A stretch of 64,000 bases of DNA from NCBI RefSeq assembly GCF_000213785.1, contig NC_015557.1, forward strand, positions 124,001-188,000, written 5' to 3'. Under the pieces are notes generated by a model that was not told the DNA's origin, searched no databases, and saw nothing but the letters and a program-made list of their open reading frames with translations. The translations under genes and the position numbers were made by a program. Positions within the stretch are counted from its first letter, which is position 1, and every line of letters begins with the position of its first letter. This document shows, one piece after another, positions 1,444 to 38,733 of the stretch. The stretch is from Hydrogenobaculum sp. 3684 (lineage in GTDB: Bacteria > Aquificota > Aquificia > Aquificales > Aquificaceae).

Positions 1444-2268
1444 TCAAAGGTTGTTTGGGGTTGCGGTAGTTTTTGTAGGGTTTAAAGATTTTTGGTTGTT
1501 TTCTTTTTCTCTTATTGTTATAAACTTGTTGTAGCGCAAATCCACTATTTTGTTTGCGAGATAACTAGGGCCGTAGTTTAATATTATTTTTAGCCTCTCT
1601 AAAAGTTGCTTTTTATCGTATTTATTTGAAAGTGGTAGTATAATCTCCCCGTTTATATCTTTTATATCTACAAAAATACCGCTGTTGGTAATAAATATAT
1701 TTTTGTCTTTAAATTGTTTTAAATAATTTGCTATAGGCTTTAGCCACAGTTTAACTTCTTTCTGGGTTTTTTCTATATCTGGTGTATATATAATGGTTAG
1801 GCCTTTGGTGTTGAAGTATCTTTTATCAAACAAATTACCTTTGTCATCCATGAGATAGCTTTTGTTTTGGTTTACCACAACGGCAATGGGTTTTCTTTCT
1901 TTTATATAAACATCTACCACTACATCGTTATTTAATATACCCTTCAAATCTTTTTTTATAGCCACTGAAGCTACAGCGTTGCCGGTGGCTTTTTCTAATT
2001 TATCTTTGATGCCAGATGCATTTATAAAAAGCCAGTTTCTTTTGTAAGCTCCTATGGCATCTGCCACTACCTTCGGCGGTATATTTTGATCTCCGTAAAC
2101 ATTTACGGCTTTTGCTTTAAAAAAGCTTATGCTGTCTATAAGAAAAGGTGCAAAGAAACTAAAAAGCCCAAAAAGTATAAGCCATACAAAAGGTAAAACT
2201 TGCTTAACAGTGTTCCATTTTGAAGATTTCCCCTTTTGTTTTCCTCGATGATAATATAAGTTAGCCAT
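1444..2268 (-). CDS. ftsQ: Cell division protein FtsQ (POTRA domain)
   Basis: A 274-residue single-pass membrane protein. It has a basic cytoplasmic tail (1-22), one TM helix (about 24-48), then a POTRA-like segment (KAVNVYGDQNIPP..., about 52-125) and the FtsQ-type beta domain. FtsQ links FtsB/FtsL to the early divisome. Its start overlaps the end of ddl by 8 nt, and the order murB-ddl-ftsQ is the classical dcw cluster order. ftsA does not follow and ftsZ lies 13 kb away, so the cluster is split. Sequence conservation in this family is low, so the call leans partly on synteny. Confidence 0.82.
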   Translation of the reverse strand: MANLYYHRGKQKGKSSKWNTVKQVLPFVWLILFGLFSFFAPFLIDSISFFKAKAVNVYGDQNIPPKVVADAIGAYKRNWLFINASGIKDKLEKATGNAVASVAIKKDLKGILNNDVVVDVYIKERKPIAVVVNQNKSYLMDDKGNLFDKRYFNTKGLTIIYTPDIEKTQKEVKLWLKPIANYLKQFKDKNIFITNSGIFVDIKDINGEIILPLSNKYDKKQLLERLKIILNYGPSYLANKIVDLRYNKFITIREKENNQKSLNPTKTTATPNNL

Positions 2269-3127
2269 TTACAAGCATCTCCACCATCTTGTCAAAAGAT
2301 ATGCCGGCTTTCTTAAGGGCCATAGGCAAAAGGCTAAGTTCTGTAAGACCAGGTATAGTATTTATTTCAAGGGTGTATACATCTTCACCTTTTACCCTAA
2401 AATCTATCCTTGCCATATCTTTTAACTCAAATATATCCACTAACTTTGAAGCGATCTCTTTTAGCTTTTTAGCGATGCTTTCGTCTTCCACAAAGATATA
2501 TTCTGACATACCTTTTGTATATTTGCTTTCAAAATCGTATATACCTTTTTTTGGTATTATCTCTATAGGTTCTAAAATAAACCCTTTGAAGTATCCCACC
2601 GTCATATCTTTGCCCTCTATAAACTCCTCTACAATAAGCTTATCGTCTATTTTGAATATATTTTGAGCAGCTTCTTTAAGGGATTTGTCATTTTCTACTT
2701 TGAAAAGCCCAAAACTAGAACCAGCAGAAGCTGGTTTTGCAATACAGGGAAATATGCTCCAATCTATAGCATCTTTTGGTTTGTAAGCTTTCCATTTTGG
2801 GGTTTTGATATTGTTTTGCTCAAATATCTGTTTTGAAAAATCTTTATCCATACATATGGCGCTTGTTTTCGTGGTTGAGCCTATGTAAGGTATACCTAAT
2901 ATATCAAGAAGCCCTTGAACTCTGCCGTCTTCTCCATATGCCCCATGGGCTATTATAAAAACTTTTTCTGGATTTATCTGTTTTAATTTCAAACATAAAT
3001 CTTTGTCTATTTCTAAAACATCTACGTCGTAGCCAAGCCTTTTAAGGGACTCTTCTACCGCTTTAGCACCTTTTAGGGCAATCTCTTTCTCAAGCGAATC
3101 TCCGCCAGTTATAACCGCTATGCGCAT
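2261..3127 (-). CDS. ddl: D-alanine--D-alanine ligase
   Basis: A 288-residue ATP-grasp enzyme that makes the D-Ala-D-Ala dipeptide for peptidoglycan. Visible motifs are the N-terminal GGDSLEKE, AHGAYGEDG, the nucleotide-binding KPASAGSSFG, VEEFIEGKDMTVG and the C-terminal metal/substrate motif EINTIPGLTELSLLP. Length is near the family minimum of about 300. The ATG at 3127 overlaps the end of murB by 10 nt and the stop overlaps ftsQ by 8 nt, so the three genes are probably translationally coupled. Confidence 0.95.
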   Translation of the reverse strand: MRIAVITGGDSLEKEIALKGAKAVEESLKRLGYDVDVLEIDKDLCLKLKQINPEKVFIIAHGAYGEDGRVQGLLDILGIPYIGSTTKTSAICMDKDFSKQIFEQNNIKTPKWKAYKPKDAIDWSIFPCIAKPASAGSSFGLFKVENDKSLKEAAQNIFKIDDKLIVEEFIEGKDMTVGYFKGFILEPIEIIPKKGIYDFESKYTKGMSEYIFVEDESIAKKLKEIASKLVDIFELKDMARIDFRVKGEDVYTLEINTIPGLTELSLLPMALKKAGISFDKMVEMLVNG

Positions 3128-3966
3128 ATCAGTTTTATTTCCTCTTCTAATATTATATTAAAAGCTTTGTAAACTTGCTCTTTTGCTATACTTAATATAT
3201 CGATAACATTTTGAAAAGATGCGTTTTGATAGTTTATTAAAAAGTTTGCATGCTTTTGGGAAAAACCTATATCTTTTATTCTATATCCTTTTAAACCAAC
3301 CGCTTCTAAAAGCTTACCGGCAAAGTTGCCTTTCGGATTTTTAAACGTAGAACCAGAAGTGGGCATATTTAGAGGCTGGGCTTCTATTCTTTTTTGGTTT
3401 ATAGTTTGTGCTAAAGGTTTTATATCTTGATGACTTTTTCTAAACAAAAACTCTCCGTACAACACCGGCTTGTTTTCAAACTCTGTTTTTCTATAAGTAT
3501 AAAATATTTCTTCTTTTGGTTTGTAAATTATTTCCTCTTCATCTATAAACCATACACCTTTTATAAAGTCAAAAATCTCTACACCATAAGCTCCTGCATT
3601 CATGGCTATTGCCCCGCCAATGCTTGCTGGAAAACCTATCAACTTGTAAAACTCTTCTACGTTGTTTTCTATAGATAGTTTTATTAAGTCTTTCAAAGGT
3701 ACTCCTGCAGAGGCTTTTACCAAAATACCTTCTTTTGTTTCTTGGATTTTAACATCGTAAAAATATTTTGTATTTATTAATACGCCGTTGAAATCTCCAA
3801 ATATGGTGTTTGAGCCTTTTCCAAGTATGCAGAGTTTGTCGTTTTTGTATTTTTTGTATATATCTAAAAATTCTTTTTCGTTTTCTGGAAAAAACATATA
3901 CGAACCTACTCCGCCTATTTTTATCGTTGTGAAGTCTTTTAAGTCCGCATTTTTGTTTATTATCAT
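3118..3966 (-). CDS. murB: UDP-N-acetylenolpyruvoylglucosamine reductase MurB
   Basis: A 282-residue FAD enzyme for the second step of UDP-MurNAc synthesis. It shows the FAD-binding motifs LGKGSNTIF and IGFPASIGGAIAMNAGAYG, YRKTEF, the catalytic-Ser motif SGSTFKNP and the C-terminal GFSQKHANFLIN. The size suggests a short type II MurB. It is the first gene of murB-ddl-ftsQ. The divergent promoter region upstream (3967-4030) is shared with the GAF-PAS-GGDEF gene. Confidence 0.95.
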   Translation of the reverse strand: MIINKNADLKDFTTIKIGGVGSYMFFPENEKEFLDIYKKYKNDKLCILGKGSNTIFGDFNGVLINTKYFYDVKIQETKEGILVKASAGVPLKDLIKLSIENNVEEFYKLIGFPASIGGAIAMNAGAYGVEIFDFIKGVWFIDEEEIIYKPKEEIFYTYRKTEFENKPVLYGEFLFRKSHQDIKPLAQTINQKRIEAQPLNMPTSGSTFKNPKGNFAGKLLEAVGLKGYRIKDIGFSQKHANFLINYQNASFQNVIDILSIAKEQVYKAFNIILEEEIKLICA

Positions 3967-3999
3967 CAGTTTATTTTATCATAACGTATATAAATTTGC

Positions 4000-4005
4000 T
4001 ATAAT
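4000..4005 (+). promoter_or_regulatory. Putative -10 box of the GAF-PAS-GGDEF-EAL gene
   Basis: A perfect TATAAT lies 25 nt before the ATG pair at 4031/4034. No good -35 hexamer is visible, and the ribosome site is weak (GTGGA). Confidence 0.45.
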
Positions 4006-4030: not shown

Positions 4031-5077
4031 ATGATGGAAAATAAAATTGTAAAGTTGTATAGGTTGATGAGGGCTATAAACCAGGAGATTGTTAGAAGCG
4101 TAAATGCTTCAACACCTTACGATGAAGCTTCATTTTTTGAGCATCTTTGCGATATAGTAGTAGAGCATTTTGTAAAGTTTGCTTTCATAGGTTTTTATAT
4201 AAAAAGCATAAATAAAATAGTACCAGCTTATTATCCCAAAAAATCACTTGATAATATGTACTTAGATTATCTTAAATTTTTGGAAATTCCTCTTGATGAG
4301 TCAGATATAAGGTCAAAAGGGCCTGCCGCCACATGTTTTAAAACAAATAGCGTTGTCATAATAGAGGATATAGAAAAAGATCCAAGAATGATACCTTGGA
4401 AAGAGGAAGCTTTAAAAAGAGGATTTCGCTCAAGCGCTACTTTGCCTGTAAGAAAAAACGGTGATATCATAGGTGTGTTTGGGATGTATGCGGACGAGAT
4501 AAACTTTTTTCAAGAGGAAGAAAGGAGCTTGTTAGAGGAATTAGCTCTTGATATAGGGATGACTCTTAACGCTATAAAGACACGTTGGCTTTTTCAGGCT
4601 GTAGAATCTGGGCTTTCTTCTTACATGGACTTATTTATCATGACAGACAACGACGGTAAGATATTGTATGTGGGCGATAAAACGTTGAAAGTTTTTGGAT
4701 ACGACAAGGGTGAGCTTTTAGGTAAAAAAGTTGATATTTTATTTAGTTATTTATTTAATTATAAAGATTTATTAGAGGCTATATCCCAGGCTAAAGAGTA
4801 TAGTAGTATAGTGCTTTTCAAAACAAAACAAAACAAAAATGTTTATGTAGATCTGGCTGTTGTACCGATAGCCAACGAGAATTTTATATTTATAGGCAAA
4901 GATGTATCAAAAGAGAAGAGCTTAGAAGAGCAAATGCATTTTCTTTTAAATCAAGACCCTGTTACCGGTTTATTCTCTTACTCATTTTTGATAGCAGAAC
5001 TTGATATGCATGTGAGAAGAGCATTGGAAATGAGTGAATGGGGGGGGGTGAGCCGTCGGCCGTGGTTCCCGAGATGA
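4031..5077 (+). CDS. GAF-PAS-GGDEF(start) half of a frameshifted c-di-GMP signalling protein
   Basis: From MMENKIVK the frame encodes 348 residues: a GAF domain (about 20-185), a PAS domain (about 195-300, with FIGKDVSKEK at its end) and the start of a GGDEF domain (DPVTGLFSYSFL). It then runs into the G9 tract and stops at TGA 5075-5077. The rest of GGDEF and the EAL domain continue in the -1 frame from 5038. Ten or seven G, a -1 ribosomal shift, or transcriptional slippage adding one G would give one protein of about 801 residues. The longer upstream frame from 3788 is spurious because it overlaps murB and ignores the ATG pair at 4031/4034. As written the gene is split; error, pseudogene and phase variation cannot be separated from one sequence. 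Confidence 0.85.
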   Translation: MMENKIVKLYRLMRAINQEIVRSVNASTPYDEASFFEHLCDIVVEHFVKFAFIGFYIKSINKIVPAYYPKKSLDNMYLDYLKFLEIPLDESDIRSKGPAATCFKTNSVVIIEDIEKDPRMIPWKEEALKRGFRSSATLPVRKNGDIIGVFGMYADEINFFQEEERSLLEELALDIGMTLNAIKTRWLFQAVESGLSSYMDLFIMTDNDGKILYVGDKTLKVFGYDKGELLGKKVDILFSYLFNYKDLLEAISQAKEYSSIVLFKTKQNKNVYVDLAVVPIANENFIFIGKDVSKEKSLEEQMHFLLNQDPVTGLFSYSFLIAELDMHVRRALEMSEWGGVSRRPWFPR

Positions 5078-6435
5078 ATGCTATAAACACTGGTAAAGCT
5101 AATTACAATAGGCTTGGGGCTTTCATACTGGCGGATATCTATAGATTTACTTATATCAACGACGTATATGGTTTTGATATAGGCGATGAGCTTTTGAAAG
5201 CTGTTGGCAGGAGGCTAAGAGATATATTTAGGCCAACAGATATAATAGGTAGGGTTAGTTCTGATACCTTTGGTATAATTTTGACAGATTTAAAGGACAA
5301 GGAAGATGTAATAATACTTTTGGATAGATTAAGAAAAGCTTTTGAGCAACCTTTCAACATAAATGGCAATGTTATAAGTGTAGCTATGCAAATGGGTATA
5401 GCTATTTTCCCAGATAATGGAAAGTCTGCCAAAGAGGTGTATAAAAATGCTGATATATCTTTAGCTAAAGCTAAAAAAAATACAGAGTGGAGTTATGTAT
5501 TTTTCAGCGACGATTTAAACTCAAAAGCTTCCCAGTTTTTACTTTACAAAACACACCTTGAGAAAGCTTTTGAGAAAGGAGAGTTTGTAATATATTATCA
5601 GCCTTACTTTGATATCAACACTCTTTGTATTGCTGGCTTTGAAGCGCTTACAAGGTGGAAATCCGAAGAACTCGGCTTTATCTCGCCCATTCATTTCATA
5701 CCTATACTTGAAGAGTCTGGTCTTATATCAAAATTAGAAACTTGGCTTATAAATCAAGCGTGTAAAGACTTGGAGTATCTGAATAGCATAAAGCTTTTTG
5801 CAAATATGCCAATACCAATATCTATCAATATATCACCTATTTCTTTTAAAAATGAAGATGTATATGAAAAAATTGTAAATATTACCTCAAGATACAAGAA
5901 GACAGATAGAGCGGCATCGACGCATTTCGAGTCTGAGGAACATGCACAGTCACTCAATAGCTCTGAGAACGGCTTACAAGTATACCACGGCTTACAGCAC
6001 ACTTTATTTGGCTGTATAAACATAGAAATTACCGAGAGTTTATTTTTAGAAAATTTCGACAAAGCCATATCTACGCTTGAAAAGCTTAGGAGCTCTGGTT
6101 TTAAGATATCTATTGATGATTTTGGAACTGGTTATAGTTCTTTTTCCTATCTTAAAGATTTACCAATAGATTATCTTAAAATAGACATATCTTTTGTAAG
6201 GCATATATTAAACGATAAAAAATCAAGATCTATCACGAAAACTATAATAGAACTAGCCCACAACCTTGAGATGAAGACCATAGCAGAAGGTGTAGAAACA
6301 AAAGAACAGTTTGAGTTGCTAAAGTCTTTAGGGTGCGATATTGTTCAAGGTTTTTGGTTGGCAAAACCAATGCCGATAAGTGAGTTAGTAGATTTTATTG
6401 AAAGTTGGGAGCATGAAAAAATAAATTATTATTGA
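5038..6435 (+). CDS. GGDEF(degenerate)-EAL half of the same frameshifted protein
   Basis: This frame holds the body of the GGDEF domain (FILADIYRFTYINDVYGFDIG..., then RVSSDTFG where GGDEF should be, so cyclase activity is unlikely). A full EAL domain follows with the expected catalytic residues: FEALTRW, SINIS, IEITES, IDDFGTGYSS, LKIDISF, AEGVETKEQ and VQGFWLAKP. It is therefore probably a c-di-GMP phosphodiesterase. Between NITSRYKKT and CINIEITES it carries about 32 extra residues that come from a dispersed DNA repeat (5908-6003). ATG 5038 overlaps the G tract and is not a convincing independent start. Confidence 0.85.
   Translation: MGGGEPSAVVPEMNAINTGKANYNRLGAFILADIYRFTYINDVYGFDIGDELLKAVGRRLRDIFRPTDIIGRVSSDTFGIILTDLKDKEDVIILLDRLRKAFEQPFNINGNVISVAMQMGIAIFPDNGKSAKEVYKNADISLAKAKKNTEWSYVFFSDDLNSKASQFLLYKTHLEKAFEKGEFVIYYQPYFDINTLCIAGFEALTRWKSEELGFISPIHFIPILEESGLISKLETWLINQACKDLEYLNSIKLFANMPIPISINISPISFKNEDVYEKIVNITSRYKKTDRAASTHFESEEHAQSLNSSENGLQVYHGLQHTLFGCINIEITESLFLENFDKAISTLEKLRSSGFKISIDDFGTGYSSFSYLKDLPIDYLKIDISFVRHILNDKKSRSITKTIIELAHNLEMKTIAEGVETKEQFELLKSLGCDIVQGFWLAKPMPISELVDFIESWEHEKINYY
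5040..5048 (+). other. Run of nine G at the frameshift point
   Basis: Nine consecutive G in an AT-rich gene. The upstream frame reads TGG GGG GGG GTG and ends 29 nt later, while the downstream frame is one base back. The bases after it (5049-5074) are unusually GC-rich for this window. The tract lies in a loop between the first GGDEF helix and the strand FILADI. Confidence 0.9.
5908..6003 (+). repeat. Dispersed 78-bp repeat, copy A, in frame inside the EAL domain, with an internal 18-bp unit
   Basis: Bases 5908-5977 align without gaps to the TnpB-element end copy (35044-34975, minus strand) with 55 of 70 identities. An 18-bp unit (5978-5995, also found four times at 50797-50868) follows, flanked by a duplicated CGGCTTAC, and the repeat closes with AGCACACT. 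Total 96 bp, or 32 codons, so the EAL frame stays open. The added residues include HFESEEH and SLNSSEN. Confidence 0.85.
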
Positions 6436-38278: not shown

Positions 38279-38733
38279 TGCCAGAGGAAGAAAAACAAGA
38301 TAAACAACCTGAAGAGCTCAAGGAAGAAGAAAACAAAGCAGAACCCATACCTCAAAACGATGAAGACTTGATGAAATTGTGGGAAGAGGCTATGCAAGCC
38401 CAAGCTCAAACTGAGTCCAGCACTGAAAACCAGCAACCCCAAGCTACTGTACAAGAACAAGATATATCTAAAGAGTTACAGCGTATCCTTGATATACCTC
38501 TTTCTATTACTGTAGTTATAGGAACAACGGTAATAACTATAAAAGAGTTGCTTAATCTAAGACCCGGTTCTGTGGTGGCTTTGGATGAGTCTATAAATAG
38601 TTTTGTATCCGTTTATGCAAACGGAAAACTCATAGCTAAAGCTGAGCTTGTGGTAGTTGGAGAAAATTTTGGCATAAGGATAGCCGAAATAATAGAGAAA
38701 GAAGATCGCGTAAAATCTTTAGCAAGTCATTAG
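38278..38733 (+). CDS. fliN: Flagellar motor switch protein FliN
   Basis: A 151-residue protein. Residues 1-60 are an acidic, Gln-rich linker. The C-terminal SpoA domain (about 70-145) has LDIPLSITVVIGTTVITIKELLNLRPGSVVALD, split here only for description, and GIRIAEII at the end. It is the last gene of the flgC-fliN operon and is convergent with the PfkB kinase with no gap. Confidence 0.92.
   Translation: MPEEEKQDKQPEELKEEENKAEPIPQNDEDLMKLWEEAMQAQAQTESSTENQQPQATVQEQDISKELQRILDIPLSITVVIGTTVITIKELLNLRPGSVVALDESINSFVSVYANGKLIAKAELVVVGENFGIRIAEIIEKEDRVKSLASH

Follow-up and report, generated by a model that had tools for sequence, protein, structure and literature searches.

A GAF-PAS-GGDEF-EAL gene of Hydrogenobaculum divided into two overlapping reading frames at a nine-G run

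Introduction

Frame-transition genes have been catalogued by GeneTack, which sorts them into programmed frameshift, phase variation, translational coupling and pseudogene (Antonov et al. 2013, PMC3711429). Short overlaps between reading frames are associated with strong termination-reinitiation coupling, and they are enriched among genes for the subunits of complexes (PMC10666635, PMC6728339). The tandem GGDEF-EAL proteins MorA, MucR, PA0575, PA0861 and DosP have the same domain order and fold as the product of the gene described here, but they are single chains, whereas in our case two open reading frames (ORFs) each encode a part of the GGDEF domain.

The gene lies in the window (the whole 64-kb stretch of DNA that was analysed), which belongs to a complete genome (1,552,775 bp) of Hydrogenobaculum, a bacterium of hot springs. 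The original prediction held that a nine-G tract splits a GAF-PAS-GGDEF-EAL gene at a contingency locus or a site of programmed slippage, with decay or sequencing error as alternatives. We compared the locus mainly with G003, a second complete Hydrogenobaculum genome (1,559,514 bp, about 6% different in DNA), with ARK-05, a lineage known from one MAG, and with KMB_Bin01, which carries the fused gene.

Results

Two ORFs share one GGDEF domain. The two halves of the gene are offset by one frame, as originally described, ORF2 being in the -1 frame relative to ORF1. The main features of the locus are the following.

3976..4005, + strand: sigma-70-like promoter match upstream of ORF1 (10/12 in a consensus scan; weak, and not evidence of function)
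4034..5077, + strand: ORF1, 347 aa (348 aa from ATG 4031), GAF-PAS plus the N-terminal GGDEF helix alpha1 (DPVTGLF...HVRRA), from the alignment to the fused KMB_Bin01 protein
5038..6435, + strand: ORF2, 465 aa, -1 frame, the remaining degenerate GGDEF (SSDTF) and the EAL domain
5040..5048, + strand: nine-G run where the frame breaks, within the part that encodes the GGDEF alpha1-beta1 loop
5903..6020, + strand: in-frame insertion in the EAL loop, an interspersed repeat with about 20 further copies in the genome and absent from ARK-05 and KMB_Bin01

Between the promoter match and ORF2, the same scan returned on the + strand just two matches of 9/12 (4442-4470 and 4640-4667). The claim of a split gene stands insofar as two ORFs meet at the G-run; it needs amending in that the cut passes through the GGDEF domain itself, leaving the alpha1 helix in ORF1 and the remainder in ORF2, and in that the GGDEF motif is degenerate. 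The EAL motifs of ORF2 are complete (GFEAL, SINISP, IEITES, DDFGTGYSS, LKID, AEGVE and QGF), and with the usual catalytic residues present this domain is a predicted phosphodiesterase; the ancestral single gene is predicted to have encoded a sensor-regulated c-di-GMP phosphodiesterase. A search for a plasmid copy of the split locus gave no match.

The repeat at 5903-6020 belongs to a family of about 78 bp, short, interspersed and often tandem, of which this genome and G003 each contain about 20 loci. Members also occur at L052, L054 and L053:880-1290, and none in G001, G002 or G004. They are mostly intergenic, and they also lie inside a ribonucleotide reductase-like gene, at differing sites in this genome and in G003. 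Such in-frame repeats are reminiscent of the Rickettsia palindromic elements found in proteins.

The position of the G-run, not its length, is remarkable. The nine-G run is real, and the 1.55-Mb genome has no other run of at least eight G or C; two more runs of exactly seven bring the total of those of at least seven to three. Its asserted rarity holds as a count, but composition alone predicts about as many, since 0.3-1.8 starts of nine G per genome are expected under Markov models of order 1-5, so that its length by itself is not beyond genome-wide chance; in a dinucleotide shuffle of the window, 0.27 matches to eight G are expected. When tract length was simulated, 7 or 10 G joined the frames of ORF1 and ORF2 (799 or 800 aa from ATG 4034), in agreement with the original arithmetic, and 8, 9, 11 or 12 G left them apart.

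The break occurs with and without a G-run. The fused gene is intact in KMB_Bin01 (L023), in G002 (L006) and in homologues from other phyla, and because of this distribution the fused GAF-PAS-GGDEF-EAL form is ancestral. The break is common to three lineages: this genome, G003 and ARK-05. In G003 the tract also counts nine G. ARK-05 (L022) is split at the same place with GAATTGGGTAGGTGAGCC instead of the G-run, and it differs there from KMB_Bin01 by two single-base gains whose net offset equals that of the two extra Gs here; the break thus needs no G-run and is not a homopolymer error. Homopolymers are error-prone on some sequencing platforms, and a sequencing or assembly error in the run had been among the original alternatives. 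As the cause of the split it was rejected in view of the identical G-run in G003, a complete genome about 6% different, and of the ARK-05 offset in a context with no homopolymer, and we hold an error of this kind to be highly improbable.

Both halves are constrained. Codon comparisons indicate that both halves are under purifying selection. Between this genome and G003, we counted 15 synonymous to 1 nonsynonymous differences in the GGDEF part (omega 0.015, P ~5e-8), 24 to 18 in the EAL part (omega 0.17, P ~6e-5) and 17 to 22 in ORF1 (omega 0.31, P ~0.02), the P values being set against a neutral expectation of 72-74% nonsynonymous; if the shared nine-G run is ancestral, all these differences postdate it. 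Against ARK-05, omega is 0.11 for ORF1, 0.08 for GGDEF and 0.19 for EAL (P 1.6e-6 to 6e-16 across the parts), a constraint that may be partly older than the split; for the neighbours murB, ddl, rpsO, pnp and the deacetylase-like gene at 629-1381, the corresponding values are 0.02-0.11. A pseudogene would be expected to have lost purifying selection, and the omega values of 0.015-0.31 against G003 and 0.08-0.19 against ARK-05 show no such loss.

These counts bear on ongoing decay, in which indels would have inactivated the gene and its loss would now be in progress. The repeat inserted in the EAL loop would fit such a history, and so would the G003 orthologue, in which 2 nt are missing right at the EAL motif (L003:3108-3125), a deletion that, from its sequence, should abolish phosphodiesterase activity. 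Polarised with ARK-05, the G003 branch is relaxed to near neutral in ORF1 (8 synonymous to 17 nonsynonymous), and since this comes with the deletion, decay is under way in that copy. Yet the GGDEF part of G003 is strictly conserved on its own branch (11 to 0) despite the deletion, the branch of this genome is constrained throughout (9:4 in ORF1, 3:1 in GGDEF and 13:9 in EAL), and two of the split lineages retain an uninterrupted ORF2 of more than 420 codons. The purifying selection that acts on both halves argues that the locus is not a dead pseudogene in this genome and disfavours the originally suggested decay in its simple form, which we rate as rather unlikely.

A contingency locus is a further explanation: slipped-strand mispairing at the G-run would toggle the gene between fused (7 or 10 G) and split states and yield cells with linked and unlinked sensor and EAL output. 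The run sits exactly at the break, where 7 or 10 G bring the fusion back, and a gene switched ON from time to time would keep both halves under selection; the constraint seen between this genome and G003 is thus also expected under phase variation. Long G/C tracts can moreover arise in c-di-GMP genes of the genus, as G003 shows, where a tract of C25 interrupts a different PAS-GGDEF gene. Against this explanation, both genomes that carry the tract have nine G (n=2), and ARK-05 is split with no tract at all; KMB_Bin01 and G002 lack it as well, so that the tract is not conserved in orthologues. A search of viral contigs for tract-length variants gave no match. Contingency-rich genomes, in contrast, carry many long G/C tracts, and apart from the nine-G run no G/C run here exceeds seven. 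The idea of many contingency tracts in this genome was rejected on the count of just three runs of at least seven. On balance, we consider switching of this gene unlikely.

The C25 tract (G003:C1:1226472-1226496; L051:1973-1997) lies inside a PAS-PAS-GGDEF gene that is out of frame there, with ORFs at L051:1550-2008 and 1905-3794. It was sought and found absent in the G003 paralogue (183464-185746) and in related genes of G000, G001, G002 and G004. In G002:C78, a nine-G run (L056:1045-1053; G8 matches at 38644-38652) is flanked by an EAL-domain gene and a chemoreceptor-like ORF and may lie within a promoter region. A broader proposal, that Hydrogenobaculum switches c-di-GMP genes by slippage at G/C runs in coding regions (the nine-G run here, C25 in G003), joining and separating sensor and output, seems doubtful to us; if true, it would represent a c-di-GMP contingency system in a thermophilic non-pathogen. 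A search of the literature library for phase variation in Hydrogenobaculum found no paper.

Recoding has a site here and none in ARK-05. In a fourth explanation, ribosomes slipping by -1 on G_GGG_GGG, or RNA polymerase slipping on the nine Gs, would give some fused protein besides truncated ORF1. The slippery heptamer is in the right frame (TGG GGG GGG read as G_GGG_GGG), it is the only slippery site between the stop of the -1 frame (TGA 5035-5037) and the ORF1 stop, and both halves are conserved. On the opposite side, a search for a downstream pseudoknot or hairpin after the run returned none, the region folding worse than shuffles (z = +1.4 and +2.4); bacterial frameshift sites do not always need such a structure. 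The closely related G_GG.G_GG.U, when assayed in E. coli with no stimulator present, was the least shifty of the motifs, at 0.018% (PMC4066793). In ARK-05 the motif is missing: its codons are GGT AGG TGA in the zero frame and GGG TAG GTG AGC in the -1 frame, and because TAG closes the -1 frame beside the AGG TGA of ORF1, a -1 slip is essentially excluded. We therefore view recoding as very unlikely. The original proposal of contingency or slippage is thus permitted at this locus by frame arithmetic, but it fails as a general mechanism, ARK-05 being split with neither a G-run nor room for a -1 slip.

ORF2 has candidate starts of its own. With essentially no slip window in ARK-05, its ORF2 has to start anew, at the GTG overlapping the TGA or downstream. 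In the window, three elements are relevant to an independent start.

5043..5052, + strand: GGGGGGTGAG, candidate Shine-Dalgarno for ORF2 starts, 12 nt before GTG 5062 (computed)
5062..5064, + strand: GTG, candidate ORF2 start, conserved in G003 and ARK-05, with ATG in KMB_Bin01
5074..5077, + strand: ATGA overlap, in which the ORF1 TGA (5075-5077) overlaps the in-frame ORF2 ATG 5074

The computed duplex of GGGGGGTGAG with the anti-Shine-Dalgarno is worth -9.7 kcal/mol, against -10.0 for rpsO and -3.7 for the ARK-05 counterpart; the 12-nt gap to GTG 5062 is longer than usual, and pairing is weak at ATG 5038 (-3.3) and at ATG 5074 (-2.2). In both arrangements an ORF2 start overlaps the ORF1 stop, through ATGA here and GTGA in ARK-05 (L022:4962-4965), and the -4 overlap is kept in G003 and in ARK-05, where it lies at another position. 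NTGA overlaps are common by chance, an estimated one in five per split, and two of them thus lend modest support only to coupling.

The break maps to a flexible loop. An AlphaFold2 model was computed for the fused KMB_Bin01 protein; its mean pLDDT is 80.8 and its pTM only 0.47, so that the placement of the domains is uncertain. Around the break the model has a helix (325-347), a loop of lowest confidence (348-359, pLDDT <50) and a strand (362-370), and the break maps around residues 345-347, at the edge of the loop. The GGDEF-EAL part of the model matches PaMorA (4rnh) with a TM-score of 0.93, normalised by target. In the alignment, the alpha1-beta1 loop is longer in Hydrogenobaculum and short in other phyla. 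From the model, fission in such a floppy loop would be structurally tolerable. In the stretch of ORF1 that leads up to the break, which comprises the linker and the GGDEF helix (alignment columns 309-348), omega is 0.00-0.09 among the split lineages and 0.02-0.04 against the fused gene, about equally strict. This constraint suggests that the GGDEF helix of ORF1 still packs on the ORF2 part, whether the two are separate chains or are joined in some fused protein.

Discussion

We infer that, among single mechanisms, fission with coupling best accounts for all three split lineages, and we give about an even chance to a functional fission of the gene within a disordered loop, accompanied by translational coupling, probable assembly of two chains and a secondary role for the G-run. 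The original prediction did not include this reading. According to this proposal, a single GAF-PAS-GGDEF-EAL gene would have been cut in Hydrogenobaculum, in the expanded, disordered alpha1-beta1 loop of a degenerate GGDEF domain. One mRNA would serve both ORFs through termination-reinitiation, the tail helix of ORF1 would dock back onto the GGDEF core of ORF2, and sensor and EAL output could then act as two assembled chains. The nine Gs, here and in G003, would be a by-product of indels in a tolerant loop; they may now serve as a Shine-Dalgarno and may also slip occasionally. Since ARK-05 has the same break with no run, the G-run is probably not the switch it first appears.

If fission with coupling is correct, the locus offers a young and datable split within a folded domain of a signalling enzyme, and the fused form lives on in relatives from the genus. 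It makes testable whether a degenerate GGDEF domain cut in its alpha1-beta1 loop leaves sensor control of the EAL output in place, and whether a short overlap is enough by itself to rescue a gene so divided. The locus also cautions that a homopolymer at a frame break is not always a switch.

Among described systems, the poly-G/C contingency loci of Campylobacter and Helicobacter resemble this locus in having a G-run at the frame break of a signalling gene; here, in contrast, the long tract is single, has equal length in two strains, and a relative is split with no tract. The frame-transition genes of GeneTack share with it a -1 transition conserved in homologues, a nearby G repeat and an ORF2 start beside the ORF1 stop; the scheme asks for five members, and with three in one genus it does not settle the class (PMC3711429). 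Translationally coupled overlapping pairs likewise consist of same-strand ORFs, and the present pair shares with them a 4-nt stop/start overlap at a conserved break, a Shine-Dalgarno-like run towards the 3' end of the upstream ORF, and proteins that likely act together. It differs from them in that it would have arisen by splitting one domain, the GGDEF, in that coupling is deduced from the arrangement of the ORFs, and in that longer forms of ORF2, from ATG 5038 or GTG 5062, are possible.
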